Assembly (NCBI RefSeq): GCF_041381155.1
Contig: NC_091144.1
Location: 33,784,980-33,848,979 of the forward strand
DNA length: 64,000 bases
Direction of reading: 5' to 3'
DNA from: Argopecten irradians
Taxonomy: Eukaryota; Mollusca; Bivalvia; Pectinida; Pectinidae
Shown here: positions 2,886 through 41,603 of the stretch, piece by piece
Position numbering within the stretch: position 1 is the stretch's first letter
Layout: every line of letters begins with the position of its first letter
Position numbers and translations under genes: made by a program
Notes under the pieces: generated by a model
What the model saw: the letters and a program-made list of their open reading frames with translations, nothing else
Database searches by the model: none
Told to the model about the DNA's origin: nothing

Positions 2886-2934
2886 ATGGCGTTACTGGCT
2901 GTGGTGGCATTACTTGTATCGGTATTAACATTCT
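2886..2934 (+). CDS. Lectin exon 1 (signal peptide)
   Basis: Starts at the ATG in AACAAAATGG and encodes sixteen mostly hydrophobic residues plus one base of a cysteine codon; the donor is T|GTGAGT. It is shared by both isoforms, since no second signal-peptide exon is visible before the downstream cassette. Confidence 0.8.
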
Positions 2935-5900
2935 GTGAGTATGGACACTACCCTGTCATGGTAATATTTCTGATAATAACCTTGTAATGTGATCATAGTA
3001 ATACTTATGGTCCTGTCACGTTTTTCTGTTTCCGATGTAAGTGGACACTAATGAATAAGGAAAAGTCTCGTTAAGACTATGTAGTTTATGGGATTGTTTT
3101 TATTGTTTTAATATTTGTTGTACTCTCCTTCTCTGTTGGTAATTTCTTTTAATATACTTTATACATATATTAATGTCACATTCATCAGTTTTAATCCCAA
3201 ATGATCAATAATAAAACATCACAGTCACCTTAACATCTAGCTCAACGATGTCATCAGTAAGGCCTAATTATAATCATGTGGACCTTTAATACTTTGTGAT
3301 ATAAGCATTACATTCAATTCCAAATATAAATTTTCCGTCCTTGCATAATACAGAGTTGCCTCCCTTACGAATAGGTATCCGATGTGACGTCATTATTTTG
3401 TGCGCGAATTTCAAGTCGATTTAAAAAAAAATGACGTTACGCTCGCAAACAGAGGACGTCACAATCAATATCTTCCCTCAAGCACAGATAACTCTGAAAT
3501 ATGCATTTTCTATCCTGTTTTCCTCAAATAATTCTTTATTAACTTCTATGGTAACCAGTTTAAAATGAAGGCATGTTTACAAGTATCGACTTTCAACAAC
3601 TGCTGTAAAATAAAGTTATTTATAAATTTCTTTGATATAACTTAATTTCAACTAAATCTACAAATACTATCAATATCGGGTTAGAATCTAACTTGACTTT
3701 TTGTCGATAGTCACGTATAGTGTGGCTTTAGATAAAGTTGATGATGTCTCACTACCCTTGACACATACTTGCTACAGTAATTGTATCGCTATTTTCTATT
3801 TCAATAATTTTGCGGTTATTACGCAAAACGAGAAAATGTTTAAGAATTACAACTGTGCGACAAAAACAATTGATAAAAGCATTAGTTATCGTATTAAGAA
3901 TTACATGTTCGCGGTCTAAACATTATCCTACAATACCAAAGTTCAGACATTAGCGTCTGATGATGCGTGCCAATTAATGTACCATGAATGCTGTTTTGTA
4001 ATATAGAAATAAAATTCCTAATTTACAAATGTCTTTAATTTTGCCCTCTCTGTAGATGATGAAAAACTCTAAAATGATTGTGTAGAACTATTAATGTCTT
4101 TTGTTTTTCCTTTTTTTTTCCTGTAGGTGATTGAAAAAAACTTAAAAGGTTGTAACCTAATAATGGTGGATTTCTCTGTAGGTAAAACTGACTTTCCTGA
4201 CGTTGTAACATATGGTTGATTTCTCTGTAGGCGAAGCTGATTGTCCAGACGGATTTTCCAAACATGGCGGTTCCTGTTATAAAGCTGTACGGATAAAAGC
4301 AACATGGGCTGAAAGTGATGTAAGCTGTTATCGTCCACTACGTAAAATATAAGGAAAATATTTATTTCATTTTCATTGACTACAATCATTTCAAAATATG
4401 TATTGATATCTTTCTATAGTGCACAGTACAGCTCACGCGGATTTTACAATTCTCACTGGCCCGTCACGGGCGTGGGCATCGTGGACCCATGTAGTTACTA
4501 GAGTAGTGTGTTGGGAATCTGTTATCTAATTGTTTGTATTGTTTCCTTCTATCATCAAAATAAAAATCGTATTGGAGTTATCTCCCTTCATTTGAAATTC
4601 GATGAATATAATTGTTTTAGTGTTGTGTCTTCGATGAATATAATTGTTTTAGTGTTGTGTCTTACTGTTTATGACTAACTTGTACCGCTGTGTTTGTTCT
4701 GTAAGGAGAAGATCTACATAGGCAATAACTGATATCTTATCCCATTTTCATTTGTCAATAAAAGTTGAAATCGATTTAATGCAGCTCGATGTCATGCAAT
4801 TCATATATATATTTCAGTTATATATAAATTATAATTCCAACTAACAAACAAATATATGAAGTCTTCAACAGAATTAAACGTATCGCTATAATTATATTGC
4901 ATATTTTATCATTTTCAATATTATCTTAATTAAACATTTTTTTTTCTTCGTGTAGATATGCTTTAAATATGAGATTTCCCCTTTGCAGGTGTATTGTCAT
5001 TCTGCGGGCGCGGACCTTGCAACCATTGAGACAGCAGAAGAGCAGCACTATCTTGAGGGACACCTATCTGCCATTGCAGGTAAGATTAAATGACCGTAAA
5101 AAATCGCCGAATAAAAGCGACTAAAACTTTAGATTTCACCGTTGAAAACAGAAACCAAGCGTTACGCATCTTACTATACATCATAAAACTTATACTTCCT
5201 CTCAAATACAAAATTTAATAGTACCGACAACTACTTAATATATACACACGTATATAAAAAACTGCAAAATTAATCTTGTTGATCTAATTCAAAATACCCA
5301 AATTACCGTTCGTAAACAATAATTGCTTGTGCGTGGGAAAAAACTAAAACATCATGGCGGATATATGTAATAGGTTGAAAAAAGTTGTGTAATGCTTGAC
5401 TTCTGTTTTCAATTATTATAGTGAAATATTAAAGCATTTATCGCTTTAAAGGCCCACAACCTTTCCAGAGCAAAATTTAAAGGTTTCTTAAAACATTAAC
5501 AACATAAGAAAATACATGTCGAAGGCCTAAGATGAGGAAGGCCTAAGATCAGGTAACATCACCATACAAATGCAAGATTTCCTGCGTAATATATTATAAC
5601 AGTGAAGATTCATTTCGCTGTTTTGCAGTCTGGCGCAGTAATATTCAACTACCGCGCGGTATATAGGACGACGGCTGGAAATATCAGAAATACCTTATTT
5701 TATTGCAGATATCTGCTTAATAAGTCATGCAGTTTATTAAATGTGTTATTCATAATATTCTAAATATATATTTGCTCAAACTTACGGGTTTACTTTTATT
5801 TCCTTTCGAGACCGATCGGAAAATGTACTATCATTATACACTCAAATACATTTAAAGCATGATCCCAAAAACTATATCTGAAAGTCATTCTTTTGAAACC

Positions 5901-7668
5901 TGGGCCCAGTTTCATAAACATTCCTTAACTTATAATTCTCCATAGGAGTGCAATACAGATTTTAAGGCTCCTTAAGTTAAGATTGTTATCTTAAAATCTG
6001 TATAATGCTTTCCTATGGGGAATTGAATAAGGGATTCCTTAAATTTAAGGAATGTTCATGAAACTGGGCCCAGAAACTCGGACCATACTTTTATTACTTC
6101 TATATCATGTAAAACTTAGTATAAGCAAAATATTCCCTCCTTCTGTAATGTATTTGCATAGTTAAGTCTTGTCGCTGTTTGTCGGTTTACAATATCCATA
6201 ATATCATTCCGGTAATTAGTATAACACATGTAATACCGAACTGTATCATGGGTAATAAAAACACACAATTACGCCGCCATATTTGTGTCTGTTACCTATG
6301 TCATGCGGTCTCGTGATTTGCAACACCTTCCTTTATAGACCAATGAAACGGTCTACCACGCAATGTTTGCTCAAATTCCCCTTTTTACAAATATTCAATG
6401 CAAGGTTACAAATGATACATGTATGCAGCTCTCTGAAAAGTCATTTACATTGCGATAGATTTACACATGTTCCTATTTCCAACTTCCTATTTCCAACTAA
6501 TTTCCTGTTTATTGTAATATATTGGTATCGATTACGTTTAAACTAGATCGTAATGGTTTATAAATACCCACGAACTGCCGTTTTCTGTCGTATTGGTGAA
6601 GACGTGTTTCTTTCAGGAGCGTTTGACCCTCCACAGTTTTGGATTGGCGGAGAAGATTTCGCTGAGGAGGGTACTTGGGTATGGCTTAAGTCGAAGACAC
6701 CGATAAGCGCTCAGTCTTACTCTAACTGGATAGGCGGGGGTTCGTCACTGCCAATCACGTTTGATGAGAACTGTCTAATGGTGACCAGGGACTCGGGGTA
6801 CAAATGGGAGGACAATAATTGTGACGATCATTATTTCTTCATCTGCGAAAAAGAGTGAGTTACGGATATCATATTTCACCCTACGATGAAAAAAAAATAC
6901 GAAACTACTAAACAGAAAGATAAGAAAGCAAAACATCCTATAAGCTATTATGTAATTTGCATATTACAAAGTTATCTGCCCTTGTGGGTAGATATTGAGT
7001 ATGACGTCATGTGTTGCAGTGGGTAGCGTCATACTTTTTAGACTGGTTCCTGACTCAGTTACCTCCCTTGCACACGCATTGAGCAGAGCGCATCCTGGCG
7101 CAGAATAGAGAATTAGGGAAAGGGAATATGGGTTTTACATACTTTTTTTTAGAGAAAATGAAGCTCACAAAGAAATGACGTCACAATGGATACTTACCCG
7201 AAAGACAGTTAACTTTGTAATATGCAAACGTAAGCAGAATCCTTGGTTTGCGAAGAAGCTGTGTCCTAGATGGATTCACGTGTAACCGCATTAAAGTTTA
7301 AAGAATATTGCATAATAATTTTTTGTACTTTTTTGTGGTTTTTTGTAAGTTTTGAGATTTGTATTATTACCATATAGATCAAATAGCCTGACAGTTGAAA
7401 TTTATCCAAACATGAATTTCATTCTCATTATTACTTCAAACTCGAAATACATTTCAAAACAGTTAATGAATAAAAAATGATTTTAAAAACTATTTCTCTT
7501 TAAATGTTAATCAAATCCGTTCCTTGGCATTTCCGTCAGAAATCGTGAGTTTTCAGGAATATCCGGTGTCCGGATTATCGCGGGTACACTTTATTGCAAT
7601 ATCTTAGAGTATGTTATACATTTTTTTGTTTCAGTGCGTATGCAGACCTTGGAATCATCATAGGATAA
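2886..7668 (+). CDS. Secreted single-domain C-type lectin, isoform A
   Basis: Five coding exons, each with GT-AG borders and matching phase: 2886-2934, 4231-4319, 4989-5079, 6617-6854 and 7635-7668, giving 166 residues. Residues 1-16 form a hydrophobic signal peptide (MALLAVVALLVSVLTF), so the product should be secreted. The rest is one C-type lectin domain: CPDGF and SCY near the start, YCHSAGADLATIET in the second helix region, a FWIGG core strand, ENC, then NNCDD and FFICEK carrying the last cysteines. Such proteins bind carbohydrates and act in molluscan innate immunity (family knowledge). The usual EPN or QPD sugar-specificity triplet is absent from the long loop, and WND reads WED, so classical calcium-dependent sugar binding is doubtful. 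Exons 4 and 5 have a second, divergent copy downstream (see 9825-12348). The ATG was chosen because it begins the signal peptide. Confidence 0.88.
3341..3505. mobile_element. Foldback MITE family A, copy 1
   Basis: Inverted-repeat element of about 165 bp. The left end reads TTGCATAATACAGAGTTGCC and the right end is its approximate complement (AACTCTGAAATATGCA). Internal GACGTCA/TGACGTT motifs and GCTCGCAAACA recur in the related copies at 6956-7227, 8537-8707 and 10802-10959. It has no coding capacity and lies in lectin intron 1. Confidence 0.7.
4023..4256 (+). repeat. Tandemly repeated 3' splice-site region
   Basis: The pyrimidine tract, CTGTAG acceptor and first bases of lectin exon 2 occur four times in decaying form. 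AG-like ends fall just before 4056, 4127, 4182 and the true exon start 4231 (spacings 71, 55 and 49 bases). The copy at 4182 matches the first ~20 bases of the real exon at most positions (GTAAAACTGACTTTCCTGAC against GCGAAGCTGATTGTCCAGAC). Use of the 4182 site would keep phase but meet a stop twelve codons on. Confidence 0.6.
4231..4319 (+). CDS. Lectin exon 2 (start of CTLD)
   Basis: Acceptor CTCTGTAG, donor GAT|GTAAGC. Encodes EADCPDGFSKHGGSCYKAV and on to WAESD, the first strand and disulphide of the C-type lectin domain. Enters in phase 1 and leaves in phase 0. Confidence 0.85.
4989..5079 (+). CDS. Lectin exon 3 (CTLD helix 2)
   Basis: Acceptor TTTGCAG, donor GCAG|GTAAGA. Encodes VYCHSAGADLATIET and on to HLSAIA, the conserved 'C...GA.LA.I' segment of C-type lectins. 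It ends in phase 1 and can join either copy of exon 4. Confidence 0.87.
5900..6073. mobile_element. Foldback MITE with GGGCCCAG ends
   Basis: Near-perfect inverted repeat of about 174 bp. Left end CTGGGCCCAGTTTCATAAAC; right end the complement of the same run with one difference. The arms extend through ATTCCTTAA, and the inner arms pair again around CTCCATAGGA/TCCTATGGGG. No coding capacity. It sits in lectin intron 3. Confidence 0.8.
6617..6854 (+). CDS. Lectin exon 4a (alternative CTLD C-half)
   Basis: Acceptor TTTCAG|GAGCG, donor GA|GTGAGT. Enters in phase 1 and leaves in phase 2, so it cannot be followed by exon 4b without a frameshift. Encodes GAFDPPQFWIGGEDFAEEG, a TWVWLKSK run, the loop ending TFDENC, then WEDNNCDDHYFFICEK. 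Compared with 4b the framework is nearly the same, while the loop between SNW and ENC differs in sequence and length. Reading past the donor meets TGA at once. Confidence 0.88.
6956..7227. mobile_element. Foldback MITE family A, copy 2
   Basis: About 272 bp. Ends TTTGCATATTACAAAGTTAT and its complement AACTTTGTAATATGCAAA. Carries the family signature TTGTGGGTAGATATTGAG near the left end and AATGACGTCACAATGGATAC near the right. Longer than its relatives because of extra internal sequence. Lies in the intron between exons 4a and 5a. Confidence 0.75.
7635..7668 (+). CDS. Lectin exon 5a (last coding exon, isoform A)
   Basis: Acceptor TTTCAG|TGCG. With the two bases carried over from exon 4 it encodes DAYADLGIIIG and TAA. 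Its downstream counterpart 5b encodes DAYIDGGEIIG and TAA, so 8 of 11 residues agree. The short exon is credited because splice site, phase and the duplicate all agree. Confidence 0.82.
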
Positions 7669-7723
7669 AAAAAAACCAAAAAAACCCATAATGCCTGTTA
7701 CTTGACAGGTAATCAAATATGCC

Positions 7724-7729
7724 AATAAA
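7724..7729 (+). terminator. Poly(A) signal of isoform A
   Basis: AATAAA 56 bases after the TAA of exon 5a, a suitable place for the end of a short 3' UTR. Confidence 0.6.
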
Positions 7730-7892
7730 GATCAGTAATGCAATCATATTCTTGTTTTGTTTTGATATAAAAGTGTTCTTTGTCAAAACACTTAAAGCAT
7801 GGCACATCCTTTATAGATCGCATATCACCTAAATATCCGCAAGAACTATATCCTGTTTCACAAATATAGAAAACCGTAGGTGAATTTTGTTT

Positions 7893-8205
7893 AAAGATGC
7901 TCCATCGCCGACAGAGAATAAATGATACTCATCATTTGAACAATAGCTGATTTTTAATTGTGTATATAAGCGTCTAATTAACACAGATATACATAAAGAA
8001 TAATTACTTTTGTTGATAGTGCATGCGCAATCAGTAAGTCATTCCATGTAGAGCTTTTTTTCGGAACGCAATAAATCATTTTAAGGTTTTTTATCTTGAA
8101 GCTCAAACTTTTCAATCGAGTAAGTAACCTTTGTAACTGAAGGAAAACCGTCTGCTCCTGTTTTTGATGAGTATAGATACCATTCGTCAGCGATGGAGCA
8201 TCTTT
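7893..8205. mobile_element. MITE family B, full copy
   Basis: 313 bp with terminal inverted repeats AAAGATGCTCCATCGCCGAC and, at the right end, CGTCAGCGATGGAGCATCTTT-type sequence. No coding capacity. A related copy in the opposite orientation lies at 10106-10429, a half copy at 46338-46569 and small remnants at 8375-8412 and about 20297-20360. Confidence 0.75.
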
Positions 8206-8536
8206 CATATCATGTGACATAATTCATTATAACGGATTATTTTGTTTTATCATTTAATGTAGGTTGTTTTTTCAAACAAGAGATTTTTGAGAACCCCGAG
8301 TGCTTATGCAATGTCATGTACATGGTCACCTATTATGCCTCTTGAAATTCTTAAAATCATGCGAAAAATAGAAAAAGAAAAAGACCTTTCGTCAGCGGTG
8401 TAGTATCTTTAAGTTGATAGTGTAATTTTGATTATTTTGAATTATGATGCTGATAATACAATATACGGATGGTTTTGAGCCCAAAATAACTTATATAACT
8501 TACATCGATTAACCGCAGCAAGTGACCTTTTCTGTA

Positions 8537-8707
8537 TTTGCAAATCACAGAGTTTTCTGCCCTTGCGGGTAGATATCGATTGTGACTTCGTTAATTTGCT
8601 AACGTAAAGTCATACTTTTTAGGGGAAAAAACGACGTGAATTTAGATCACAAAATAATGACATCAAATGGATACCTACCCGCAAGGGAGGCAACTCTGTA
8701 ATATGTA
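8537..8707. mobile_element. Foldback MITE family A, copy 3
   Basis: About 171 bp. The left arm contains TGCCCTTGCGGGTAGATATC; the right arm contains the complement ATACCTACCCGCAAGGGAGG. Lies between lectin exons 5a and 4b and directly abuts the pearl-like element. Confidence 0.78.
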
Positions 8708-8711
8708 AGTC

Positions 8712-9690
8712 GTACAAAAGATCCCAGAGGGATCTTGGCGCCCACCAAAGAATGATCTATGTCTTACAATGGAAAGAGGGATCTTTTCCCTGATTTTCAA
8801 ACTTTTTCAAACACACTACATATAAAATTTGAGACAGATCGCTATAGTACTTTCTAAGAAATAGTGGTAACAAACTTCAAAAACGAAATCCAAGATGGCG
8901 GTCGTTCAGCCATCTTGTTGACCGATTAGTTACAAAATTCAATATCACAACTAGGGCCCTAGGTGAACCTACATATAAAATTTGAGAAAGACCTTTTTGA
9001 GAAATAGCGATAACAAACTTAAACTATCAAAATCTAAGACGGCTGCCAAGCGGCCATCTTGTTGACCGATTGGTCACAGAACACAATATGAAAAACAACA
9101 AGGGCCTTATAGGGACCTACATATGAAATTTGAGACAAATCTCTTCAGTACTTTCTGAGAAATAACAATAACAAACTTTAACTATCAAAATCCAAGATGG
9201 CTGCCTAGCGGCCAACTTGTTGACATATCGGTATCAAAACGCAATATGCACAACTAGGACCCTAGGGGAACCTACATATCAAATTTGAGAAAGATCCCTT
9301 TAGTACTTTCCGAGAAATAGCGGTAACAAGCTTAAACTATCAAAACCCAAGATGGCCGCCTGGTGGCCATCTTGTTGACTGATCGGTCCCAAAATGCAAT
9401 GTGCACAACAAGGGCCCTTTGGGAACCTACATATGAAATTTTAGAAAAATCCCTTCAAATAGCGGTAACAAACTTTAACAATCAAAATCAAAGATGGCCG
9501 CCTAGCAGCCATCTTATTGACCGATCAGTCCCAAAATGCAATATGCACAAATTAGGGTCCTAGGGAAACCTACATATGAAATTTAAGAAAGATCCCTTCA
9601 GTACCTTTTGAGAAATAGCAGTAACAAGAATTGTTAACGGACGGACGAACGGACGACTCATCTGATGATGGTGGGCTAAAAATATACCTG
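8712..9690 (+). mobile_element. Pearl-like (Helentron-type) element with tandem cores
   Basis: Three parts can be seen. A left flank holds GATCCCAGAGGGATCTTGGC. Five tandem copies of a core of about 142-158 bp follow, each with an AAGATGGC...GCCATCTTGTTGACC hairpin and an AATTTGAGA...TTTCTGAGAAATAG run; core starts are near 8889, 9034, 9192, 9347 and 9489. Then comes an (ACGG)n-type tract at about 9637-9656 and a short right end TCTGATGATGGTGGGCTAAA. This order (left flank, tandem ~160-bp cores, ACGG microsatellite, short right flank) is that of the bivalve pearl elements, which have been proposed to be non-autonomous Helentrons. The family name is from memory; the structure is seen directly. 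Confidence 0.7.
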
Positions 9691-9824
9691 TAGCGCAACA
9701 ATGACATTTTTATGGTCATCCATGTATTTCACGTTTTACCCAACAGATCTTACTGTTTGTCATCGCCATAATTTGTCAGGTATTCAACAGATTTTATAAT
9801 GGTATTTGGAATTGAAACTTTCAG

Positions 9825-10053
9825 GAGCGTTCGACCCAGCACGGTTTTGGTTTGGCGGGAATGATTTCGCGGAGGAAGGGACATGGGTGTGGGCCAAATC
9901 AAAGATACAGATTGTGGAGTACACCAACTGGAGGTATAACGCTGTGACTCCTATTGATAAGGACGAGAACTGTCTGGAGCTATCACAAGGGTACGACTGG
10001 CAATGGAATGACAACGACTGTGACGATCGTTATTTCTTCGTCTGCGAAAAGGA
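9825..10053 (+). CDS. Lectin exon 4b (alternative CTLD C-half)
   Basis: Acceptor CTTTCAG|GAGCG, donor GA|GTAAGT. Paralogue of exon 4a, nine bases shorter. Differences cluster between TNW and ENC, the position of the ligand-binding loop; the FAEEGTWVW and CDD.YFF.CEK blocks are conserved. If spliced after 4a it would be read out of frame and reach TGA after about thirteen codons. Confidence 0.85.
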
Positions 10054-12348
10054 GTAAGTATGTGTACGAGTAATAAATGAATGAAATTGTGAAAAAATAT
10101 TGAATTATAAAAAACAAGAGCAGACGATTTAGTATTTTTCTTCAGTTACAAAAGTTACTTACTTTACACCATTACCAACATTGAAAAGTTTGAGCTTCTA
10201 ATTTTACTTCAAGTTAAAGATATGAAAAATAATTAATTGCATCCCGAAAAAATCCCTTGGCACTATATCCTATATGGAATTAAGTACTGATTGCGCATGC
10301 ACCACAGACAAAACAAATTATTTTATATGATTTTTTTGTGTTAATTAGACAGATATATACGCGATAAAACACAAATTATTATTCAAATAATCAATATCAT
10401 TTATGCTCTGTCGGCGATGGAGCATCTTTATAGTGATTAATTTGCTATGTTATTGAGTGAACACAGAGATGAATTAACATAACATTCTATAAAGCAACTA
10501 ATGGAATTAACATAAGATGCTATAAAACAAACAGTAAACTGAAGAACTAACATAAGATCTTATAAATAAACAGAAGAATTAACATACACGTAATTAATAC
10601 CATATGGAACAAACAGCTATCAAGAGAACTAACAAAATAACCTGTAAAATAGAACGATTCTGGTAGAAAAACTAAAACTAAGAAAGGCAAGAAACTTTAA
10701 AAGTGACACATGCGTTAACGATATTTCTGGTTACATTTCTTTAATATATATCAGGCGTTTTGTTTATAGGTAGGTCGTTTATGACGTTACATTATTCCGT
10801 CTTTGCATATTACAGAGTAAGCTTCCTTGCGGGTAGATATTGATTGTTACATCATTATTTTATTGTGAGCGTCGTTTTCTCCGAAAAGTATGACGTTTCG
10901 CTCGCAAACACATGACGTCACAATCGATACCTACCCGCAAGGGCAGATAACTATGTACTGTCGTCGAAAGAGTGAAGGGCAACAGCTTGGACCAGAATAA
11001 ATCAAGATTCTCAGAACAGAAAGAGAATTATAATAATTAGCCAATGAGGACGAGCTGACCGATACGAAACGTGGCAAGGTCAGGTGACCAATACAGAACC
11101 TTAGGGTAAGATTAATAGAATCTTACCTGAGTCTGTAAAGTGGACAGGGATATCTCAACCCAACAGGGATATCTCAACCCGAGTGAAAGATTTTAGCCGG
11201 TCAACCCGAGACTTGCCGAGGGTTGACGGCCAAAATCTCACGAGGGTTGAGATATCCCGGTCCACTTCACAGACCCATGTAAGATTCTATTATTCTCTCA
11301 TACTTAGTAGACAAAATGATGAGATTCCTCTTGGTTTCATCGCGCTATTATCGCCGGAACGTCGTTATGCGTCAAAATTGATGACGTCATATACAATGCG
11401 CGGCACAGTTACGCCGCATGTATTGATGACGTCACGTTATTGTCTAGCGCGTGTGAGCTGTCTCACACCCCTGTGTAAGATAGAGTTATCTTTTCCCTAG
11501 CAACCGCGGGATATCCCTTTGAAGTATGGGAGAGTAAATTAACCAGAACCGAAGGCAAGTTTCCGTAACTAAAGTTTAGCGCTGCTTTGATGACGGCTAT
11601 TGATATGCCATACGCATCCCTAGGCGAGGAATCGCTTCCTTTTTGAAGTCGAAAATAAATCTTTTTGTGTCATATATATATACCAGTGACAACATACAGG
11701 TAAAGAAACGTTAATAAAACCTATATGACAATAACCTTTCCGAAGTCTACTAATGTAAAATTTTGTATTTCATTCCGAAATTGTTCTTTTTAATTCAACT
11801 ATTAATAAGGTTAAAATTCATTTTGTATATATTTACATAAAATAAAACAACAGTGATTTTACACTGTGACAAGTGAGCGTATAACGTAGTGTAGTTCGAT
11901 CACCCGTGGGTCTCCGACGATGGGACCTACAGAACATCAGAGTTAATACCTTGTACAATTGTTTACTTATTTTCAACATTAAGCATTATTGAATTGTTTT
12001 ACATTATCATTTATTAAATCAGAATCTGACGAACTATATGTTACCATGTTATAATTGTATAATCATGTTATTTCATATAATACAATTGTCTGATCATTCT
12101 TATTTCATTCGCTAGTAGAAGATCAAGTAGATCTTATGTAAGCGAATACAAATAGAAATATATATTTAAAATTGCAGTTAAATGTGATTGTTTAATAAAC
12201 TTATATTTTAGAAGATATGTTTAATTATTTAAGACTATGTTTTAATGTATACATGTGTTTTTAATTATAATGGCAATGCATGTTTAACTGCGAGTATCTC
12301 TGCTTTTTGTACAGTGCATACATTGATGGCGGAGAAATCATTGGATAA
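9825..12348 (+). CDS. Lectin alternative 3' cassette (isoform B, exons 4b and 5b)
   Basis: Two exons: 9825-10053 and 12315-12348. Joined to shared exons 1-3 they give a 163-residue secreted lectin. Both copy the phases of exons 4a and 5a exactly (phase 1 in, phase 2 out, then a last exon). Exon 4b encodes GAFDPARFWFGGNDFAEEG, TWVWAKSK, a diverged loop ending DKDENC, and WNDNDCDDRYFFVCEK. Here WND, a calcium-site signature, is intact, unlike 4a. No EPN or QPD triplet is present. No separate exons 1-3 could be found between 7669 and 9825, so the cassette should depend on the upstream exons. Alternatively it is the tail of a duplicated gene whose 5' part was lost; open frames, intact splice sites and a poly(A) signal argue that it is still used. 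Confidence 0.75.
10106..10429. mobile_element. MITE family B, second copy
   Basis: About 324 bp, inverted relative to the copy at 7893-8205. Shared runs include AGTTACAAAAGTTACTTACT, ACTGATTGCGCATGCAC and the terminal CTGTCGGCGATGGAGCATCT. The far end lacks the matching terminal repeat, so this copy looks truncated. Lies in the intron between exons 4b and 5b. Confidence 0.65.
10802..10959. mobile_element. Foldback MITE family A, copy 4
   Basis: About 158 bp. Left TTTGCATATTACAGAGTAAG and TTGCGGGTAGATATTGATTG; right CAATCGATACCTACCCGCAA. GCTCGCAAACA and TGACGTCA are shared with the copy at 3341-3505. Confidence 0.78.
11111..11295. repeat. Inverted repeat around AGATATCCC arms
   Basis: Arms: TTAATAGAATCTTACCTGAG, ...GTGGACAGGGATATCTCAAC on the left and the approximate complement on the right, ending GTAAGATTCTATTATTCTC. 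A short AGGGATATCTCAACCC duplication lies in the left arm. The open frame across it is simply the palindrome read through. Likely a foldback element in lectin intron 4b-5b. Confidence 0.65.
12315..12348 (+). CDS. Lectin exon 5b (last coding exon, isoform B)
   Basis: Acceptor TTGTACAG|TGCA. With two bases from exon 4 it encodes DAYIDGGEIIG and TAA. Same length (34 bases) and phase as exon 5a. Confidence 0.8.
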
Positions 12349-14550: not shown

Positions 14551-17001
14551 CTAATCACCGTCGGAAACCACGTGATCCCAGCTTCCGTCATATTCAAACG
14601 GACCTACAGACTCCTGCACACACGTAGACTCGAAAGATGTTCCGAATGTTTCCACCTTGTTGCCGTTCGGAGGCAGAGCTGGCCGAATCCGGACCGCGTT
14701 GGGCGATCCAATACTCGGACATTCTGTAAAATAGTTGAACGGCAACAGGAAGAATGTGTACTGATTTCCAGTTATAGAGTTAGAAGGTACGTCTTCTGTA
14801 TGTGGAATGTGAACTCGACCCATCGTTACCCAGGCAACCAAGTCCTCGTCTACTATTGATTCATTGTTAAAGAGGAATCTATCAAAGTCCACTACAGGTT
14901 TCCAGGGGTCATTCTGGGCATATATAGATGTGGACATTTCTTCTGTGTCCTTAAATTGTGTCACTGCGAGAGGATATTTTGCCCATCTGGCAGCATTTGC
15001 AACTTTAGAATCTTCCAAGAAGAGGTCCGACATCGCAAGGTTGAATATCCTGTACGCACGGTTTGACCCAAACTTACTGGTTGCACGGTTATTATAAATA
15101 ATGTCGAATCTATGTTTTGACGCGTCACCGGTATCAAATATCACATCCTGCTCACGCTTTCTATCTACTTTCTCAAATCCTATATAAGTATGGTTGATGC
15201 CCCTGTACCACTGACTTGGTTTGGTAACCACTGACGTATCTAGTGTGGCATACCTATTCCGGGAGCCATTTATATCTAAATCTACTTTAAAATGAAATAA
15301 ATGTTGATGTAATGTTCCTATCACGAAGTCGTGTATCTTGTATCCAAACGCGGACTCATATGGTAAGGCATATGTGGATTGAATGTATCCGGTCTGTGAT
15401 ACTTTGACCTCTATTGCACCATTTAAGTGAAATATGTAATCAAATATAAAATCGTAACTCCATATACTAACAATAGTCCTAACTACAAGATGGTAGTCTA
15501 CAAGTCCCCCGTAGCTTTTAAATCCTCCTTGCTTGCCACTTTCATAATGCCGTCGAAGAGGAATACCGCCATTGTTTTCAAATATGCAAATAGCATTTTT
15601 AAATTTCCGTGGAGTAGTCGTATCGACAAAGTGATGAGTATCTAAAAACACTGCAGTATCCGGGCAATCAACTCCAGCGACCATCTCAAAAGCTAATCTA
15701 CCCATTAACATACTCGTGTCGTAATGTACAGTTGAACTTTGAGACGGCCCGAACCCCGAATACATAACTACAGCATCCTGTAATGATATTTCGTATGCGA
15801 TACGTTCCTCCTGGAACCGCACGTCAAAGATCTGGAGTCCGGTAGACGATCGTATATGAACGTGGAAGTCCCAATCTATGTATTTTACATGGTTTCCTAC
15901 CACCATATGACGTCTCCCATTTGGTTCGACCAATTTCGGACCTTGCGAAGGCACTGCGTTTGTCTTTCCTCTTTTCACATACGAAGAATATAAATGTTCT
16001 GTGAAGCCCACAGGATCCACTGTAATTTTTGTGATTCTATTGTCTATGTATTTTGTCATCAACTCCTCCACCGAATAGAACAGATAGCCATTGTACAGAA
16101 TCCTACTTATATGCCATTGTGTTGTATCCATAGATTCATGGTTTATTTGTATCTCGAGTCCAAGTGGGTGAAGCGCCGAACCTTCTATGTCACGAAAAGC
16201 CCAGAACCATGTCTTTCTATCGCCACTCTCTAGCCCTCGTGGTGCCGTGTCCTTGAATATTATACAGTCGACGCCGCTTGTACAATTGTGATAGGCTAAG
16301 TCATAACTGTCTCGTAGAAGAAAGTAAAGATCCTCGCTTGCTTGTTCCAAATGTTCGTACAGGACTTTGTATTCTATTTCACTGACGGGGCGTGCGTTAA
16401 ACGGCACACGTGACGTGGTATATGACGGATTTGTGATGAGACGTGCATACGTAGGGCGGGGGATTGGTCCCACGTGATACTCTTCTACACGAGGAGGTCG
16501 AAGATCACCACGAAAGATCACGACCTTTGCAGTTCGGACCGGCTGTCTGCTTCCGCGGTCTAAATTCTTCAATACAGCAGCCTTCAGTGGAAGTAATAAG
16601 TCAATCATGTATATATAACTACTGTTAATGGCTGCATTATCGAACGACACGAGATTTAAATCTTTTCTGGAAATTAAATAATCCCTGACAGTCTCCAATT
16701 CTGCTACTGTCAGTTCGTCAAATATCTCGGGCTTCTCAAGGTTGTTTGGAATGATGGGAAGACCTTTATCACATACCGGTGCCCTTTGGTAAAATATCCC
16801 CAATACTATGACTGCAGCTAACAGCATAACAGCTATACACGTGCTGACGACAGCAATCACCCTGTACACCAAAAGGTACCGGTCGCCATTGACAATGTCG
16901 ATTTCCGCTTCCTCTTCTTCCAAATCGTCCTCATTGTTATTAGCTGTTGCTCCATATTTTACGTCGTGTTCGATCCGGAAGTCCTGACTGTCTTTGGACA
17001 T
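14551..17001 (-). CDS. Copper amine oxidase, membrane-anchored
   Basis: 816 residues in a single uninterrupted coding exon. Copper/topaquinone amine oxidases oxidise primary amines to aldehydes with release of H2O2 and ammonia. Residues 1-42 are an acidic cytoplasmic tail, about 43-71 a single membrane helix, and the rest extracellular, like vertebrate AOC3. N2/N3 regions are followed by the catalytic domain from about 355. Visible catalytic features: probable base Asp428 (VHYD), topaquinone-precursor Tyr516 in WSYDFIFDY, copper ligands His565 and His567 (GTLHQHLFH) and His731 (HIPHTEDVP). Further family blocks are GVDCPDTAVFLD, GIPLRRHY, NGAIEVK, ARWAKYPLAVTQ, QNDPWKPVVDF and EDLVAWVT. The usual Asn just before Tyr is Ser515. 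The start is the in-frame ATG at 17001. The frame stays open upstream only as far as an apparent splice acceptor (CCATTGACAG, ending near 17029), so a 5' exon exists further upstream and an upstream in-frame start cannot be excluded. Stop TAG. Confidence 0.93.
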   Translation of the reverse strand: MSKDSQDFRIEHDVKYGATANNNEDDLEEEEAEIDIVNGDRYLLVYRVIAVVSTCIAVMLLAAVIVLGIFYQRAPVCDKGLPIIPNNLEKPEIFDELTVAELETVRDYLISRKDLNLVSFDNAAINSSYIYMIDLLLPLKAAVLKNLDRGSRQPVRTAKVVIFRGDLRPPRVEEYHVGPIPRPTYARLITNPSYTTSRVPFNARPVSEIEYKVLYEHLEQASEDLYFLLRDSYDLAYHNCTSGVDCIIFKDTAPRGLESGDRKTWFWAFRDIEGSALHPLGLEIQINHESMDTTQWHISRILYNGYLFYSVEELMTKYIDNRITKITVDPVGFTEHLYSSYVKRGKTNAVPSQGPKLVEPNGRRHMVVGNHVKYIDWDFHVHIRSSTGLQIFDVRFQEERIAYEISLQDAVVMYSGFGPSQSSTVHYDTSMLMGRLAFEMVAGVDCPDTAVFLDTHHFVDTTTPRKFKNAICIFENNGGIPLRRHYESGKQGGFKSYGGLVDYHLVVRTIVSIWSYDFIFDYIFHLNGAIEVKVSQTGYIQSTYALPYESAFGYKIHDFVIGTLHQHLFHFKVDLDINGSRNRYATLDTSVVTKPSQWYRGINHTYIGFEKVDRKREQDVIFDTGDASKHRFDIIYNNRATSKFGSNRAYRIFNLAMSDLFLEDSKVANAARWAKYPLAVTQFKDTEEMSTSIYAQNDPWKPVVDFDRFLFNNESIVDEDLVAWVTMGRVHIPHTEDVPSNSITGNQYTFFLLPFNYFTECPSIGSPNAVRIRPALPPNGNKVETFGTSFESTCVQESVGPFEYDGSWDHVVSDGD

Positions 17002-17024
17002 TTTAGGCTTGTGTCGTCTGTCAT
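16959..17024 (-). promoter_or_regulatory. Overlapping upstream ORF in amine oxidase leader
   Basis: An ATG at 17024, just inside the putative acceptor, opens a 21-codon frame that ends in TAA at 16959. It overlaps the main ATG at 17001 in another frame. Such a uORF could lower translation of the oxidase. Whether it lies in the mature leader depends on the unlocated 5' exon. Confidence 0.35.
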
Positions 17025-17280
17025 AGCCTGTCAATGGAAGAAAACAAAATTAATAGTAATACATTATACCGCATGTTTATAACAGTGTCTGTGATTAGTT
17101 GAAATCATTCACATGACAGGGAAATAATACATCGTATTACCCGTATGCGCATGCCCCCCATGGTGACCGCCCATATTTAACATGGAATTATTTCCCCTTC
17201 CGATGGTACAAAAATAATGGACAAAGCGTAAACGAAAATGAACAATCCAATAGTATTGTATATCGTGGTCAGACGAAATC

Positions 17281-17529
17281 CTGGCTATCCACTATTAGAC
17301 TGGCTATCCACTATTATACTTGTTATCCACTTTTAGACTGGCTATCCACTATTTGATTGGCTATCCACTATTCGACAGGCTATCCATTTTCAGACTAGCT
17401 ATCCACTATTAGACTGGCAATCCACTGTTAGACTGGCTATCCACTATCAGACTGGCTATCCGCTATTAGACTGGCTATCCACTATTATATCCACTATTAG
17501 ACTGGCTATCCACTATTAGACTGGCTACC
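17281..17529 (+). repeat. 19-bp minisatellite
   Basis: About thirteen copies of a 19-base unit, TGGCTATCCACTATTAGAC, with point changes and some shortened units. Lies upstream of the oxidase coding exon, probably within its 5' intron. Confidence 0.85.
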
Positions 17530-17735: not shown

Positions 17736-20700
17736 CCAGTCTCCTGACCCATGTGTAAACTTATTATCATTCAACATTGGTTTATATTGATAAATTATAG
17801 TGTATAAGCATAAATGTCTAATAACGTATCAGTAGTGGTGGCGGCGGGTGATCTAGGGGGATTGTCTACCAGAGTTCATTGGCATCCCAGGACGAACAAC
17901 TTCCAAGGGTATTAGCCCTGCTGGAGACAACAACGTACCTTTGGATTAGGCCATCACGTGTCAGAGAGCACAAGATCCGGTTGCCATGGTTACGGATTTA
18001 TCTAAAAGAACAAAAGAGAAATATCAAGATAAGGCTGCACCGACTAACACATCAGGATATATTACGATGTACAGTGTTCCTTTTAGTCAACAGTATTCCT
18101 GTGTTGGAAGTTGTAAATGTCAGTTTATGTCAATTATATCATGTATATTTACGTAGTTTTGCAAAAACAGATTGTAATAAATCTAAACCAGGAGCCATGT
18201 TTTCACAAATTTGAACTTTGTTTTCTTTGAGATGTACAAATTTACTGCATTCCCATCTTCAGTGAAGACACGTGTAACGACCAAAATAACCTGCGGGATA
18301 TCATGTCGGAATCCTCGGGAAATAAAAACAAACGTGTGGTTGTGAGGGCGGACTGAGTACAGAGGAATCAAATCTGATCTACAACACGTGCTTGATGGGT
18401 ACGATCAAATAGTTTCCTTTCAAAACCAATATTCCATCAGCATATTATACAAAGTTATACTAGTAACACATGCTTGCTCATCAATATCAGTCTAACGTAA
18501 TGTATAGTTGTAACTAACATCTAGTTGCTTTATAATATAAAACAAAGCAGTTAATATATCGTGTCGGATAAAAATGGTTTACCGTGTTTAGTTAACATTT
18601 GTTATTCCTTGAAGCAATTCCTCCCAATGATTGTTTTTATAACATAATCACCTCGATAAAAGTACTACCCAGTATGGAATAGTTATCAAGGTTTAACTGA
18701 CAGCGTAATATTCATCCTTACCCCCAACGAATTAATCCTCGGTAATGAACAGATGAAATGCATTACTGAAATAGCAATAACATACCTGTATAAACCAAAG
18801 GTTTTTGGGGGGTATGAAACCATGGACGTAAAGGTTTTTAGTTGATATACAGAATATACTTGTGTGTAAACATTCCAGAGACGTCAATCATTCCAACTAG
18901 ATCTGTATACACAATCTTACGCAGTAACTAACGTTACTACAACCATCAATGTGGCAGTAAGTGTTGTTCCAGTAGAAATTCTAGGTCCAGACCACGGGAC
19001 TCCATCATCATTATAAAGTAAGAAACACAGACCTGATTACTGACGAAAATGTAAAGAATCCGTTAAATTAATTTTCTCTACTGTCAGTGGCCATTATACA
19101 GTACACAAGTGATTTTTTTACTAAATATCTTAGTAATTTTACATTTTTAAAAACTTTTCTACAGAAATCAATTGCAAAATTTAAAAACTTCAAAGTTGAC
19201 AACGTAAAATCTAGTTACCTAGCGCTTATTTTGAAATAATAAAAGTATTCATCCATTGCAATGTCTCCTAGTTGTGATCGGGTATATCCAAACAACGTTT
19301 GATGACGTCACCATTCCCTTTTTAGTCTATAGTTAAATGACCTCATAAAAATACATGTCTTCAATTAAAATCGATTTCTCGATGAATATGACACGAAAAT
19401 ATCTTTTTAAAAAAGAATGCAAATATAGTTCTTAGACATTTTTTTGAAATCTTGTTACGATTAAAGGCAAAATGATTTTAGGAATATCAATTAAAAATAT
19501 GTACCATTGGTCACTACTTACATGAGGCTAAAGTTGTAAACGACACATTATATATAATCCTTCAGTGCGTGTGAACATCAAGCGTAGTCCTTTAGCACAA
19601 AAAATGAAACCTGATTTCGTATCACCGAAAAACCACACCAACACATTATAAAATATTATAAGCTTTAGCAAGTATACAGTCCAAACAGACACGCAACATA
19701 CAGTTTAAGTCATACTGTGTGTTATGAAAACACATGCGCAGCCCCTGTACAGCCGTAATATTACACTTGTTGTATCCTGACGCCATCGCAAACGTTTCCA
19801 TACTCCTTTACAAATTAACGAGTTATATTTCTCAATCATCAGTGCAGCACAGTTACGGATGGGAGGAAGCAGCAAGGCCTAGTGTTGACATGCTGACTGA
19901 GGGGGATCCTGTACATACCAGGGTCTGTCTCTGTTAATTAACTAGTAATCAGTGATGCCTTGCCTAAGTATCGACTGATCTGTCTCCGTGTAGTATCACC
20001 AGAAGAGTGACTGTTAAGTAGTGATAACATGTGTTAGGTATGATATATAGCAGATCCTCACCTGATATCTAACAAATCTTCACTAACTATTACCAACTGT
20101 CGAGGAGGTCTCTGATTGATCAGTACCCCATTTTAATTTCTTTTAACATTCAGATACTTTTCTTAATATCAACACTTTCGACCCTCAGCAATGTCGAAGC
20201 ATCACACGCCAATCTTAAAAAGAGCAAAGCTACTTTCAGAAACATAAATTAAAAACGGTTCATCGTTGATAAATGGTATTTTTCCTCTATCACAAACAGT
20301 AGCGGGCGATTTAGTATTTTCTTCAGTTACAAAAGTTACTTACTTTACACTATCATTGAAAAAGGAGGAGTGTCAATTTGGACCCTCTGGTGGCCATGAA
20401 CGATAAGCATTATTTTTTTGTTTACAGATACCTGGGGGCTAAGACATCATGATATGACATATGATTAAGGTCAGGTCGGAGTCCCTTGTGAGTTATGGAG
20501 GGTTAAACATGAGGGGCAATTTTCTGTTTTGTCCAGTTTTGTTGGAACCAAGTTATATTTTTTATTTATGATTTATAATGCATTTATATGTTAGAAATAA
20601 AACAAAATTTGAAAATATAACTGGTGCCATAATAGTCATTTCAGAAAGGTTTTCTGTATGTGCGACTGATTTCAGCTGCATAATCACATTTTCTGCGATA

Positions 20701-34616: not shown

Positions 34617-35893
34617 CGCATTTTGACAATGACCAAATATGGAAGGAGCTTTCTGACATTGACCAAATATAGCATAGATCATTTTGACATTGACCAAATA
34701 CAGTATAGACACTCTGACATTGACCCAATATAGCGAGACATTCTGACCATTGACCAAATACAGTAAAGAGCATTCTGACATCGACCAAATATAATATTGT
34801 AGAGCCTTTATACATTAATCAAATATGGTATAGATCGTTCTGACATTGACCAAATATGGTATAGATCGTTCTGACATTGACCAAATATGGTATAGATCGT
34901 TCTGACATTGACCAAATATGGTATATAGATGACCAAAATTCGTTCACATTGACCAAATATGGTATAGATCGTTCTGACATTGACCAAATACAGCATATAA
35001 CATTCTGACATTGACCAAATACAGCATATAACATTCTGACATTGACCAAATACAGCATATAACATTCTGACATTGACCAAATACAGCATATAACATTCTG
35101 ACATTGACCAAATACAGCATATAACATTCTGACATTGACCAAATACAGCATATAACATTCTGACATTGACCAAATACAGCATATAACATTCTGACATTGA
35201 CCAAATACAGCATATAACATTCTGACATTGACCAAATACAGCATATAACATTCTGACATTGACCAAATACAGCATATAACATTCTGACATTGACCAAATA
35301 CAGCATATAACATTCTGACATTGACCAAATACAGCATATAACATTCTGACATTGACCAAATACAATATAATAGAGCATTTTGACATTGACCAGATATGGT
35401 ATATAGCATTCTGATATTAATTAAATACAGTAAATAACATTCTGACATTGACCAAATACAATGAAGAGCATTCTGACATTGACCAGATAAAGTATAGAAC
35501 ATTCTTACATTTATCAATTACAATATTATAGAGCATTTTACCTTTGACCAACTATGGTATAGAGCATTCTGCCATTGACCGTACAGTGAAGAGCGTTCTG
35601 ACATTGATCAAATACAGTGTAGCATTTTAGCATTCTGACATTGATCAAATACAGTGTAGAGCATTCTGACATTGACCGAATACAGTGCGGAGCTTTCTGA
35701 CATTGACCAAATACAGTGTAGAGCATTCTGACATTGATCAAATACAGTGTAGAGCATTCTGACATTGATCAAATACAGTGCGGAGCATTCTGACATTGAC
35801 CAAATACAGAATAGAGCATTCTGACATTGACCAAATACAATGTAGAGCATTCTGGCATTGATTAAATACAGTATAGAACATTCTGACATTGAC
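34617..35893 (+). repeat. 31-bp minisatellite
   Basis: About 41 copies of a 31-base unit (ATTCTGACATTGACCAAATA followed by CAGCATATAAC). The central dozen (about 34980-35360) are almost identical, while both flanks are diverged (AGTGTAGAGC or GGTATAGATCG endings). Since 31 is not a multiple of three and the unit has no minus-strand stop, three overlapping minus frames of 144-232 codons stay open; they are products of the repeat, not genes. Confidence 0.92.
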
Positions 35894-38493: not shown

Positions 38494-39615
38494 ATAAGAC
38501 ACTGGCCGAATAGTGTTACATTATTGTTAATTAGGTTGAAACTGAAGCCTGGGTTAGTGTCCAACTGATAGCCACTTAAACGATCACTTCAGCTCCAAAG
38601 TATGAGGTCAGATCCAGAAATAACCTAAGCTTATAATTCTTATAATATCGGTTTTCATTACGAGGTTAAGCCCGACAATATTGAAAGGTCAAATGTTATC
38701 TTGGTACCAGTCTGGTATTACCACTCTACAATTTGGGTTTCTGTACCAACAAGAAATAAAAACATACTTTCCAACTTTATCAACCATACAAATGGCACTA
38801 AAATTAAGATCGTATAAAAGATATAGGCTCGGTTACGAGAATTAACAGCATGCCAACCAGGTACTTTCTAACTACATTAAGTGTTTTTTCTTCGGGTACT
38901 CTGGTTTACGAAACCTAAAGGATCCTTATGGTGATTCTGATGTAACATTGAAAAGTGACATATTGGAACATATTATCACTACAACATGGATGCCGGTGAA
39001 GATTTTGATATTTTATAATGACTATGAAGGATTGGTGCACCGACAATCATTTGTACTTGCTGCATCGAAATCAACCAATTTTAACACACGAAGCGATGGG
39101 AAAATATCCCCGAGATGACCGTTATATCAAAACATGATGATCGCAATATCAAAATATGATGACCGTAATATCGAAGTTTGATGACAGATAGGATGACTGT
39201 AATACCCAACAGCGGCCCATACCGATGTTCATGTATTTGTCATCATTCAATGCGACAGAGATAACGGAGAAGGGTAATTGTGCCAAGAATTGTCCATTTG
39301 TCTTTTTTACTCGTTAAAACTATCATTCGCGGGGTTGATGGTAATCTCTGATTTGGAAAAATCCGTACCATTTCCAATTCAGTTGACATTGAGAAACCAG
39401 TTTATGTTGTTAGCATACGTAACCCTGTCGATATATTTACATACAATAACATATGTACATGTACATGTAAATATTTACATCTCCTGCTACACTTATATTT
39501 ATAAATCAAGGATTAAAGGTATAACGAATTTTTATGGGCTAAACATTCTTACGGGACGTGGTTTTACCTTCAAAGTTGGGAAACACATTGAAATTCATAA
39601 ACATATATTTGCATC
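38494..39615. other. Non-coding; short degenerate repeat
   Basis: A run of about three diverged ~30-base units (GATGACCGTAATATC type) lies at 39110-39205. The frame at 39278-39637 is open but has no family resemblance and overlaps the edge of the next element. Confidence 0.4.
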
Positions 39616-41340
39616 TATTTTTGTAGTAAAAACGTAGTAAAAGAAGTCACGTGCTTATATATAATTATACCTCATTCATGCCATTGGTCGAAACATAGAA
39701 TTGTATTATGGGTAACAAGTGATCACGTGATTGTGTGTTTACCTCCAAATATGGCGATAGTTTGCTTGCCATTTTTAAGAAAAATTGATTTCTTTGAAAA
39801 TATTTAGACTCCAAAATGTTATTAATATTACGTGCATATCATTTTGCCTTGAACATATGTACTATTTTGCTATAAATAATGGGCTGAAATGAGTTATAAA
39901 ACCGCCATTTCAACGTATCATCTATAAATGGTATAATGTGAATTGACAAATTCGATCGGTCTAGCCGTCTAATCTAGGATCAGCGAAGATCGGCTACTCC
40001 CGGCTAAATTCGTAGAATTCTAAATTTATATTTACCTGCTTTAAGTTTCAGAACAATTAAATATAACACAAAGAAAATATGATCTCCGTCAAAAGGCCAA
40101 ATTATATGTACATGTTCTAAATCCCAGGCCAGTACACATAATCATGTGATCACTAGTTAGTTACCCATAATGCAATTCCATATTTCGGCCAATGGTATGA
40201 ATGAAGTAGTTTTACTACGTTTTACTACTAAGAATGCGTGTTTTGTATGGCCAAGCGGGTGTTGGTTTCAATTTCCAACATTTGAATTTGCTAAGCAATA
40301 TTATCATATCATTGTTAATTTTCATATTCTTTCCAACCAAATCGTTAAGCTTCCACGTAGCCCATTATTAATGAAGCTTTTGGGATGCAAATACTTGTGA
40401 AGATTATTGTTTACAAGTTAATTGTTTGCTATATATATATATATATATGCATCGCTTCATTCATTCTTTTCAGGCGCACTCGGGCTTGATTTCCCGACTC
40501 TATATTACCTGGAAAATTAAAACTCCTCGCCGAGTAGAGGATGCTCGTAATATACAATGTATAGAGTCGGGGAATCTAGCCCGCTGATCGGTCGAGAATC
40601 CATGCCTGCGCTCTCAATACATTGTACATCATGTACAATATGTACGTTTAAGTTATACATAAATCAGTATCACGTAAAATGACACAGCCTCGGGTTCGGC
40701 AGACAAGACATCGCACCACTCTAATGTATAGAGTATAACGATTCGCGGGGGGTGGGGGGGGGGGAGATTGTATTATATGTAACTAGTGATCACATAATTG
40801 TGTGTTTACTTTGACTTTGATTTCTCTGACCTGGTATTTACATCATGTAGTATATATAATTTTGCCTTTTGACAGAGATCTTATTTTCTTTTTGTTATAT
40901 ATGGGTATCTGTTCTGAAACCGAAGCAGGTAAGTATAAGTATAGAATTCTACGAATTTAGCCGGGAAAAGCCGATCTTCGCTGATCCTAGATTAGACGGC
41001 TAGACCGATCGAATTTTTCAATTCGCATTACATCATTCATAGATAAAACGCGGTTTTATAACTTATTTCAGTCAATTATTTATAGTAAAATAATACAAAT
41101 GTGCAAGTCAAAATGGTATTAATGCAATATCATATATATATATTAATGACATTTTGGAGTCTAAATATTTTCAAAGAAATCATTTTTCCTGAAAATGGCA
41201 AGCAAACTATCACCATATTTGGAAGTAAACACGCAATCACGTGCTCGCTAGTTACCAATAATACAAATCTATATTTCGTCTAATGATATGAATGAGGTAT
41301 AAGCACGTGACTTTTTTTACTACGATTTTACTACAAAAAA
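39600..41340. mobile_element. Head-to-head pair of a long inverted-repeat element
   Basis: Two copies of one non-autonomous element in opposite orientation, making a 1.7-kb palindrome-like structure. The left copy, 39600-40240, has inverted ends of about 110 bases: TAGTAAAAACGTAGTAAAAG ... GGGTAACAAGTGATCACGTG outside, and the complement at 40130-40235. The right copy, about 40765-41340, is inverted and lacks part of its inner end. Shared landmarks: GGTCTAGCCGTCTAATCTAG with GATCAGCGAAGATCGG, and their complements near 40975-41010. Between them lie an (AT)n run (40430-40448) and a poly-G tract (about 40746-40764). Confidence 0.75.
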
Positions 41341-41603
41341 GATGCAAATATGTTGTTTTTATGAAATCCAGTGTGGTTCCTGACCTTGGCGGTAAAACTA
41401 CGTCCTGGGCAGATATAAGATCATAATAAAAATTCGTTTTATATAAGTATTGAAGGGGAGTAAATATCTATAGGGAAAAAACATGGAGGCCGAATAAACG
41501 ACTTCGCTTGGTAAAAATTAGTAGATAGATAAAAAGTGTAAATGACACTTATATGACTCATTTCAGTCCATTGTTTGTAGTAGAATAGCACAATTTACAT
41601 GTC

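Follow-up and report, generated by a model that had tools for sequence, protein, structure and literature searches.

How might a single gene, with one signal peptide and one first half of a lectin domain, come to carry two different second halves? This question is raised by a locus of the bivalve Argopecten irradians that lies within positions 33,784,980 to 33,848,979 of contig NC_091144.1 (assembly GCF_041381155.1); this 64-kb stretch as a whole is referred to below as the window, and positions are counted from its first letter. Seven exons, with GT and AG at all internal borders, can be read there as a single gene on the plus strand, in which shared exons 1-3 are followed by a cassette 4a-5a and then by a cassette 4b-5b (Table 1). 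This layout had been proposed by a sequence-only reading of the same DNA, whose coordinates and junctions proved exact to the base. We consider it probable that the locus is a single gene for a secreted C-type lectin whose exons 4 and 5 were duplicated in tandem long ago, and that both copies have been kept as alternative endings.

Exons 4a and 4b are neighbouring, homologous and similar in length, and both are entered in phase 1 and left in phase 2, as had been claimed and as characterizes clusters of mutually exclusive exons. The three messages listed as valid by the sequence-only reading are indeed open to one TAA each: 1-2-3-4a-5a and 1-2-3-4a-5b comprise 501 nt and 1-2-3-4b-5b comprises 492 nt. 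Splicing of 4a to 4b, also as foreseen, shifts the frame, and the product reads ...CEK-ESVRPSTVLVWRE, 13 codons, before a TGA. The combination 4b-5a would be in frame too, but has the wrong genomic order; joining exon 3 directly to 5a brings an early stop, and joining it to 5b is stop-free over the 263 nt read and yields no complete lectin domain. The mutual incompatibility of 4a and 4b had been presented as a frame lock of compact design, a view that we do not share, because the lock follows from the ancestral intron phases and thus gives no particular evidence of design. Of the human clusters of mutually exclusive exons, 377 (60%) contain lengths that are not a multiple of three, according to the available text of the survey (PMC5740500). 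Two further features of the map concern its borders. Retention of the intron after either exon 4 (6853-6858 and 10052-10057) would add one Glu and an immediate TGA or TAA overlapping the donor (CEKE-stop), so that the product would be an almost complete domain without a tail. The acceptor of exon 2 (4045-4240) is preceded by imperfect copies of the acceptor region, which create decoy exon starts at 4056, 4127 and 4182, all leading to early stops.

Table 1. Exons, candidate poly(A) signals and inverted-repeat arms of the lectin gene (window coordinates)
Feature	Position	Length	Strand	Remarks
Exon 1	2886-2934	49 nt	+	Translation start and greater part of the signal peptide; hydrophobic N-terminus; phase 1 exit; GT donor
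Exon 2	4231-4319	89 nt	+	Region of the domain's N-terminal cysteine pair
Exon 3	4989-5079	91 nt	+	N-half of the domain, with Cys49; final exon common to all messages; its donor is the gene's strongest
Exon 4a	6617-6854	238 nt	+	C-half of the domain, carrying loop a
Exon 5a	7635-7668	34 nt	+	11-residue tail and TAA
Proximal poly(A) signal candidate, AATAAA	7724-7729		+	56 nt past the 5a stop; T-rich stretch after it
Exon 4b	9825-10053	229 nt	+	C-half of the domain, carrying loop b; acceptor weak
Exon 5b	12315-12348	34 nt	+	11-residue tail and TAA
Distal poly(A) signal candidate, AATAAA	12387-12392		+	39 nt past the 5b stop; T-rich stretch after it
Repeat arm	6965-7038			Possible pairing with 10884-10957; 5a with its poly(A) signal and 4b would lie in the loop
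Left arm, long pair	7892-8168			Repeat-derived inverted pair bracketing exon 4b
Repeat arm	8547-8708			Pairs with 10803-10956; brackets exon 4b
Right arm, long pair	10107-10430			Inverted pair bracketing exon 4b
Partner arm of 6965-7038	10884-10957			Same repeat copy also pairs with 8547-8708

The two endings complete recognizably the same domain. Isoforms 4a-5a and 4b-5b match the Pfam profile of the C-type lectin-like domain (PF00059) with 67.2 and 67.6 bits (E ~2e-18; gathering cut-off 22.6), and the core cysteines are in place: C21 and C32 in exon 2, C49 in exon 3, and C126, C142 and C150 in exon 4b, with the same columns filled in 4a. The proteins of exons 4a and 4b are identical in 45 of 79 aligned residue columns; the framework is kept, whereas the loop between the NW and ENC motifs has diverged and measures 12 versus 11 residues in the two isoforms, 4b being also two residues shorter before NW. 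When aligned to rat MBP-A, which has EPN, both isoforms retain the Glu of the ENC block and lack an EPN or QPD sugar motif, and the WND position reads W-N-D in 4b and W-E-D in 4a. As neither EPN nor QPD is present, canonical calcium-dependent sugar binding is not predicted for either isoform. The proposal that one N-half serves two binding faces is thereby narrowed: a shared signal peptide and N-half with two C-halves stand, while two sugar-binding faces would be conjecture. The word receptor, which had also been used, is too strong. No membrane segment was found downstream of the signal peptide (the highest mean hydropathy of any 19-residue stretch after residue 20 is 0.66 and 0.47 in the two isoforms), so the lectin looks secreted, and a soluble secreted lectin is likelier than a receptor. 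The closest single-domain solved chain is mosquito mosGCTL-3 (9ta0) for isoform b (5.5e-20) and DC-SIGNR (1xph) for isoform a (3.5e-15, with mosGCTL-3 at 1.5e-13); both are distant relatives of the fold, and multi-domain receptor chains score above them.

By their pattern of substitution, cassettes a and b stem from an old tandem duplication, not from a recent copy, and selection has preserved them as coding sequence; synonymous change between the two is close to saturation. Across the 87 codons that align, the synonymous divergence (dS) is 1.95 and the nonsynonymous divergence (dN) 0.335, a ratio of 0.17; over all codons, the Nei-Gojobori method in Biopython (NG86) gives a dS of 1.83 and a dN of 0.34, and maximum likelihood (ML) a dS of 2.23 and a dN of 0.36. 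For exon 4 alone dS is 1.55 (NG86) or 1.52 (ML), for the framework alone 2.4 (NG86) or 3.3 (ML), and 10 of 15 four-fold sites differ. Synonymous change exceeds nonsynonymous change (Fisher p = 6.7e-8, rounded counts), and the differences number 26, 23 and 43 at codon positions 1, 2 and 3 (p = 0.023 versus equal). Along the sequence, dN/dS is 0.07 before the loop and about 1.03 within it, which agrees with the earlier description of conserved framework blocks around a loop differing in sequence and length; nonsynonymous change is concentrated in the loop relative to the framework (Fisher p = 6e-7, rounded counts), and after the loop and in the tail, where synonymous differences are saturated, dN is 0.27 and 0.31. 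In a neutral, substitution-only drift simulation of exon 4a, 9% of copies were stop-free at d = 0.3, 4% at d = 0.6, and ~2% of 4000 at d = 1.0 and 1.5. The introns of the cassettes are unalignable, a/b matches being limited to exon 4 with its splice signals and to repeats; in ungapped 22-base flanks, 12 bases agree upstream and 9 downstream of 4a/4b, and 12 upstream and 3 downstream of 5a/5b. Recent gene conversion between the cassettes was ruled out, since both conserved blocks show many synonymous differences (0.66 and 0.76 per site). Loops are variable in the C-type lectin domain family generally, and we do not claim positive selection here: the ratio near 1 extends over 19 codons of uncertain alignment, in which drift and diversification are inseparable.

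If both cassettes are old, does 4b-5b have 5′ exons of its own? A search of the window with the protein of exons 1-3 gave a single hit per exon, the remaining matches having E values of 1.3 or above, and the sole matching set is thus the shared one. Nor is there a separate signal-peptide exon for 4b in 7669-9824, where 1 of 46 ATGs opens a hydrophobic frame and has no phase-1 donor, even at a donor threshold equal to the score of the exon 1 donor, the weakest of the gene. No third copy of exon 4 was found in the window by tblastn; the best extra match, 17 residues at 20516-20566 (E 0.61), was taken as chance. The N-terminal cysteine equivalent to Cys49 is, in a C-type lectin domain, the partner of the last one. 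Because this partner lies in exon 3 and not in 4b, 4b needs exon 3 or its like. The age of the duplicate, the constraint on it and the lack of a second exon 1-3 set in the window indicate that 4b-5b was retained as coding sequence, most likely to serve as an alternative 3′ ending.

The signals at the ends of the cassettes bear on how such a choice could be made. Each ending has its own TAA stop with a candidate AATAAA nearby, as is typical of alternative last exons. The claim of a separate poly(A) signal for each ending therefore holds for the presence of the motifs and their T-rich follow-on, while either motif alone is weak evidence because the first 20 kb of the window contain 27 such hexamers. 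Since each cassette has a signal of its own, the choice of ending would be as much a matter of alternative polyadenylation as of mutually exclusive splicing. A further AATAAA (10072-10077) sits 19 nt beyond the exon 4b donor, with no clear T-rich stretch after it; with intron retention, it could terminate a tail-less 4b message. Splice sites were scored with provisional weights and ranked against 3631 GTs and 3393 AGs. On this scale the exon 3 donor is the strongest of five (top 0.14% of the GTs), the 5b acceptor is the strongest of six (top 0.24% of the AGs), and the 4a acceptor is moderate (top 4.5%).

The lectin gene is also rich in inverted repeats. Counted over the whole 64 kb at E values up to 1e-8 and with arms less than 4.5 kb apart, there are seven inverted pairs, five inside the gene and four of these bracketing exon 4b; 5.6% of window positions are bracketed two or more times. 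The pairs are not independent, as three of the four around exon 4b derive from one repeat family. The longest pair joins 7892-8168 and 10107-10430. Its inner part (7880-8110 versus 10195-10440) has a predicted duplex energy of -189.3 kcal/mol, a value reached by none of 193 random window pairs (minimum -164.2), and its arms are also predicted to self-fold (-41.3 and -37.4). The pairing of the arms at 6965 and 10884 (predicted -99.6) and that of 7146-7228 with 10802-10887 would both remove 5a, its poly(A) signal and 4b in one loop. A palindromic repeat resembling miniature inverted-repeat transposable elements (MITEs) is present in four copies (3333-3507, 6956-7228, 8531-8709 and 10796-10960), all in the lectin gene and with no further copy elsewhere in the 64 kb at E values up to 0.1; the sequence TGACGTCA is found in three of the four. 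Between the cassettes lies a tandem array of ~155-nt units (8796-9628).

Taken as one gene with two kept endings, the locus would work as follows. All products would begin alike, with the signal peptide and N-terminal domain half encoded by exons 1-3. Cleavage at the proximal poly(A) site after 5a would leave only 4a-5a possible, read-through to the distal site would allow exon 3 to join 4a or 4b and then 5b, and any joining of 4a to 4b would destroy the frame. Each ending would thus complete the same fold with a different loop, a shared scaffold with a differing likely contact surface. Both endings are presumably transcribed, and the loop difference presumably alters binding; on the simplest reading, 4a would be the default and 4b would be included under special conditions. 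A more elaborate scheme, in which domesticated repeats act as the switch of a serpin-1-like swap of ligand loops between the two ancient 3′ cassettes, their RNA duplexes looping out exon 4b and in two cases the proximal poly(A) site as well, is improbable.

Several observations weigh against two working endings, and against two binding faces, which presuppose that 4b is used. With these provisional weights, the 4b acceptor is the weakest of six and ranks only in the top 22.7% of the 3393 AGs; the inverted repeats that bracket 4b would, if their predicted duplexes form, favour its skipping; and the purifying selection read from dN/dS may be past, dating from a time when an intact neighbouring gene still possessed exons 1-3 of its own. 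The last point leads to an alternative that we regard as unlikely, namely that 4b-5b is what remains of a once complete tandem duplicate gene, now dead or dying, whose exons 1-3 were lost, perhaps recently, for example through repeat insertions in 6855-9824. The weak acceptor and the repeat-filled interval upstream of 4b would fit such a history, but exon 4b, its splice borders, 5b and the stop are all intact, that interval holds no detectable remnant of exons 1-3, and the two isoforms score equally on the PF00059 profile.

If 4b-5b were instead used with other 5′ exons, these would have to lie outside the window, be joined by trans-splicing, or belong to a second gene whose exons 1-3 were lost by misassembly. 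Bivalve genomes are rich in C-type lectin genes, as the available text of PMC10140915 describes, which lends this idea some plausibility; we nevertheless hold it to be quite improbable, because the window is free of N, exons 1-3 sit 4.7-7 kb upstream of 4b on the same strand and in matching phase, and an amine oxidase gene on the opposite strand at 14.5-17 kb limits the room downstream. Least credible is that only 4a-5a works and that 4b is mostly skipped, or ends up in a circular or truncated by-product, after being looped out by the inverted repeats. The crowding of inverted pairs around 4b and the stability of the long duplex point that way, whereas the long-term constraint on 4b speaks for use as protein, and the duplexes are predictions for arms that would also fold on themselves. 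The reading of one gene with two kept alternative endings thus remains the one that we prefer.

Beyond the lectin gene, the window holds a copper amine oxidase on the minus strand (14554-17049), an uninterrupted frame of 832 residues from stop to stop with a hydrophobic N-terminal segment, adjoined by a 19-nt minisatellite (17281-17527). A coding stretch for a CFAP58-like coiled coil lies on the minus strand at 50231-50545. There are also a large inverted repeat (39554-41405) with arms of ~580 nt and 82% identity, and a repetitive stretch (34808-35517) that is open in three overlapping minus-strand frames. Rfam returned no match at the gathering score in the 64-kb window.

How does this locus compare with known systems? 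In viral contigs, two stretches matched a search pattern, none was confirmed and no related locus emerged. Among prokaryote contigs, 71 pattern matches led to 22 loci with C-type lectin-like domains, bacterial or archaeal by title, many in metagenome bins, with 26-41% identity, and these were left out of the comparison; two of them (L003 and L012) share a bin that carries the label proteobacterium. Literature searches on lectins and alternative exons, which drew on few subscription papers, brought up among the matches listed no C-type lectin whose domain exons are duplicated and used as alternatives. Perlucin of Haliotis laevigata is, in the available text of PMC4019660, likewise a mollusc C-type lectin with C-terminal splice variants. 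Oyster sperm bindin, an F-type lectin, is likewise a bivalve lectin partly diversified by alternative splicing, but there splicing sets the number of F-type domains, and its fold and role are different, as far as the available text of PMC5712786 goes.

The closest parallels in layout come from other protein families. In the arthropod serpin-1 genes (Manduca serpin-1 and Pteromalus PpSerpin-1), a constant N-terminal body is likewise combined with alternative C-terminal exons that code for the specificity loop; for PpSerpin-1, 21 C-terminal forms were detected by isoform-specific reverse transcription-PCR, and nonsynonymous change is quicker in the alternative exons than in the constitutive exons (PMC10513286, available text). 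The serpins differ in fold, in their many copies and in their proven transcripts, whereas the scallop gene is a lectin with two copies and predicted messages. Thioester-containing protein (TEP) genes of molluscs are, as is proposed for the present gene, immune genes diversified by tandem mutually exclusive exons (12 in BgTEP2 and 6 in CfTEP); they encode a thioester protein, not a small lectin, and the available text does not describe their exons as a 3′ cassette that carries a separate poly(A) site (PMC7016707). By analogy, then, the arrangement matches the serpin-1 layout and resembles the exon choice of TEPs, here in a C-type lectin. Should both endings be in use, serpins, TEPs and Dscam would be joined by a small secreted lectin among the invertebrate proteins diversified by exon choice, and this lectin would offer a minimal case with two states for a direct comparison of loop, expression and function.

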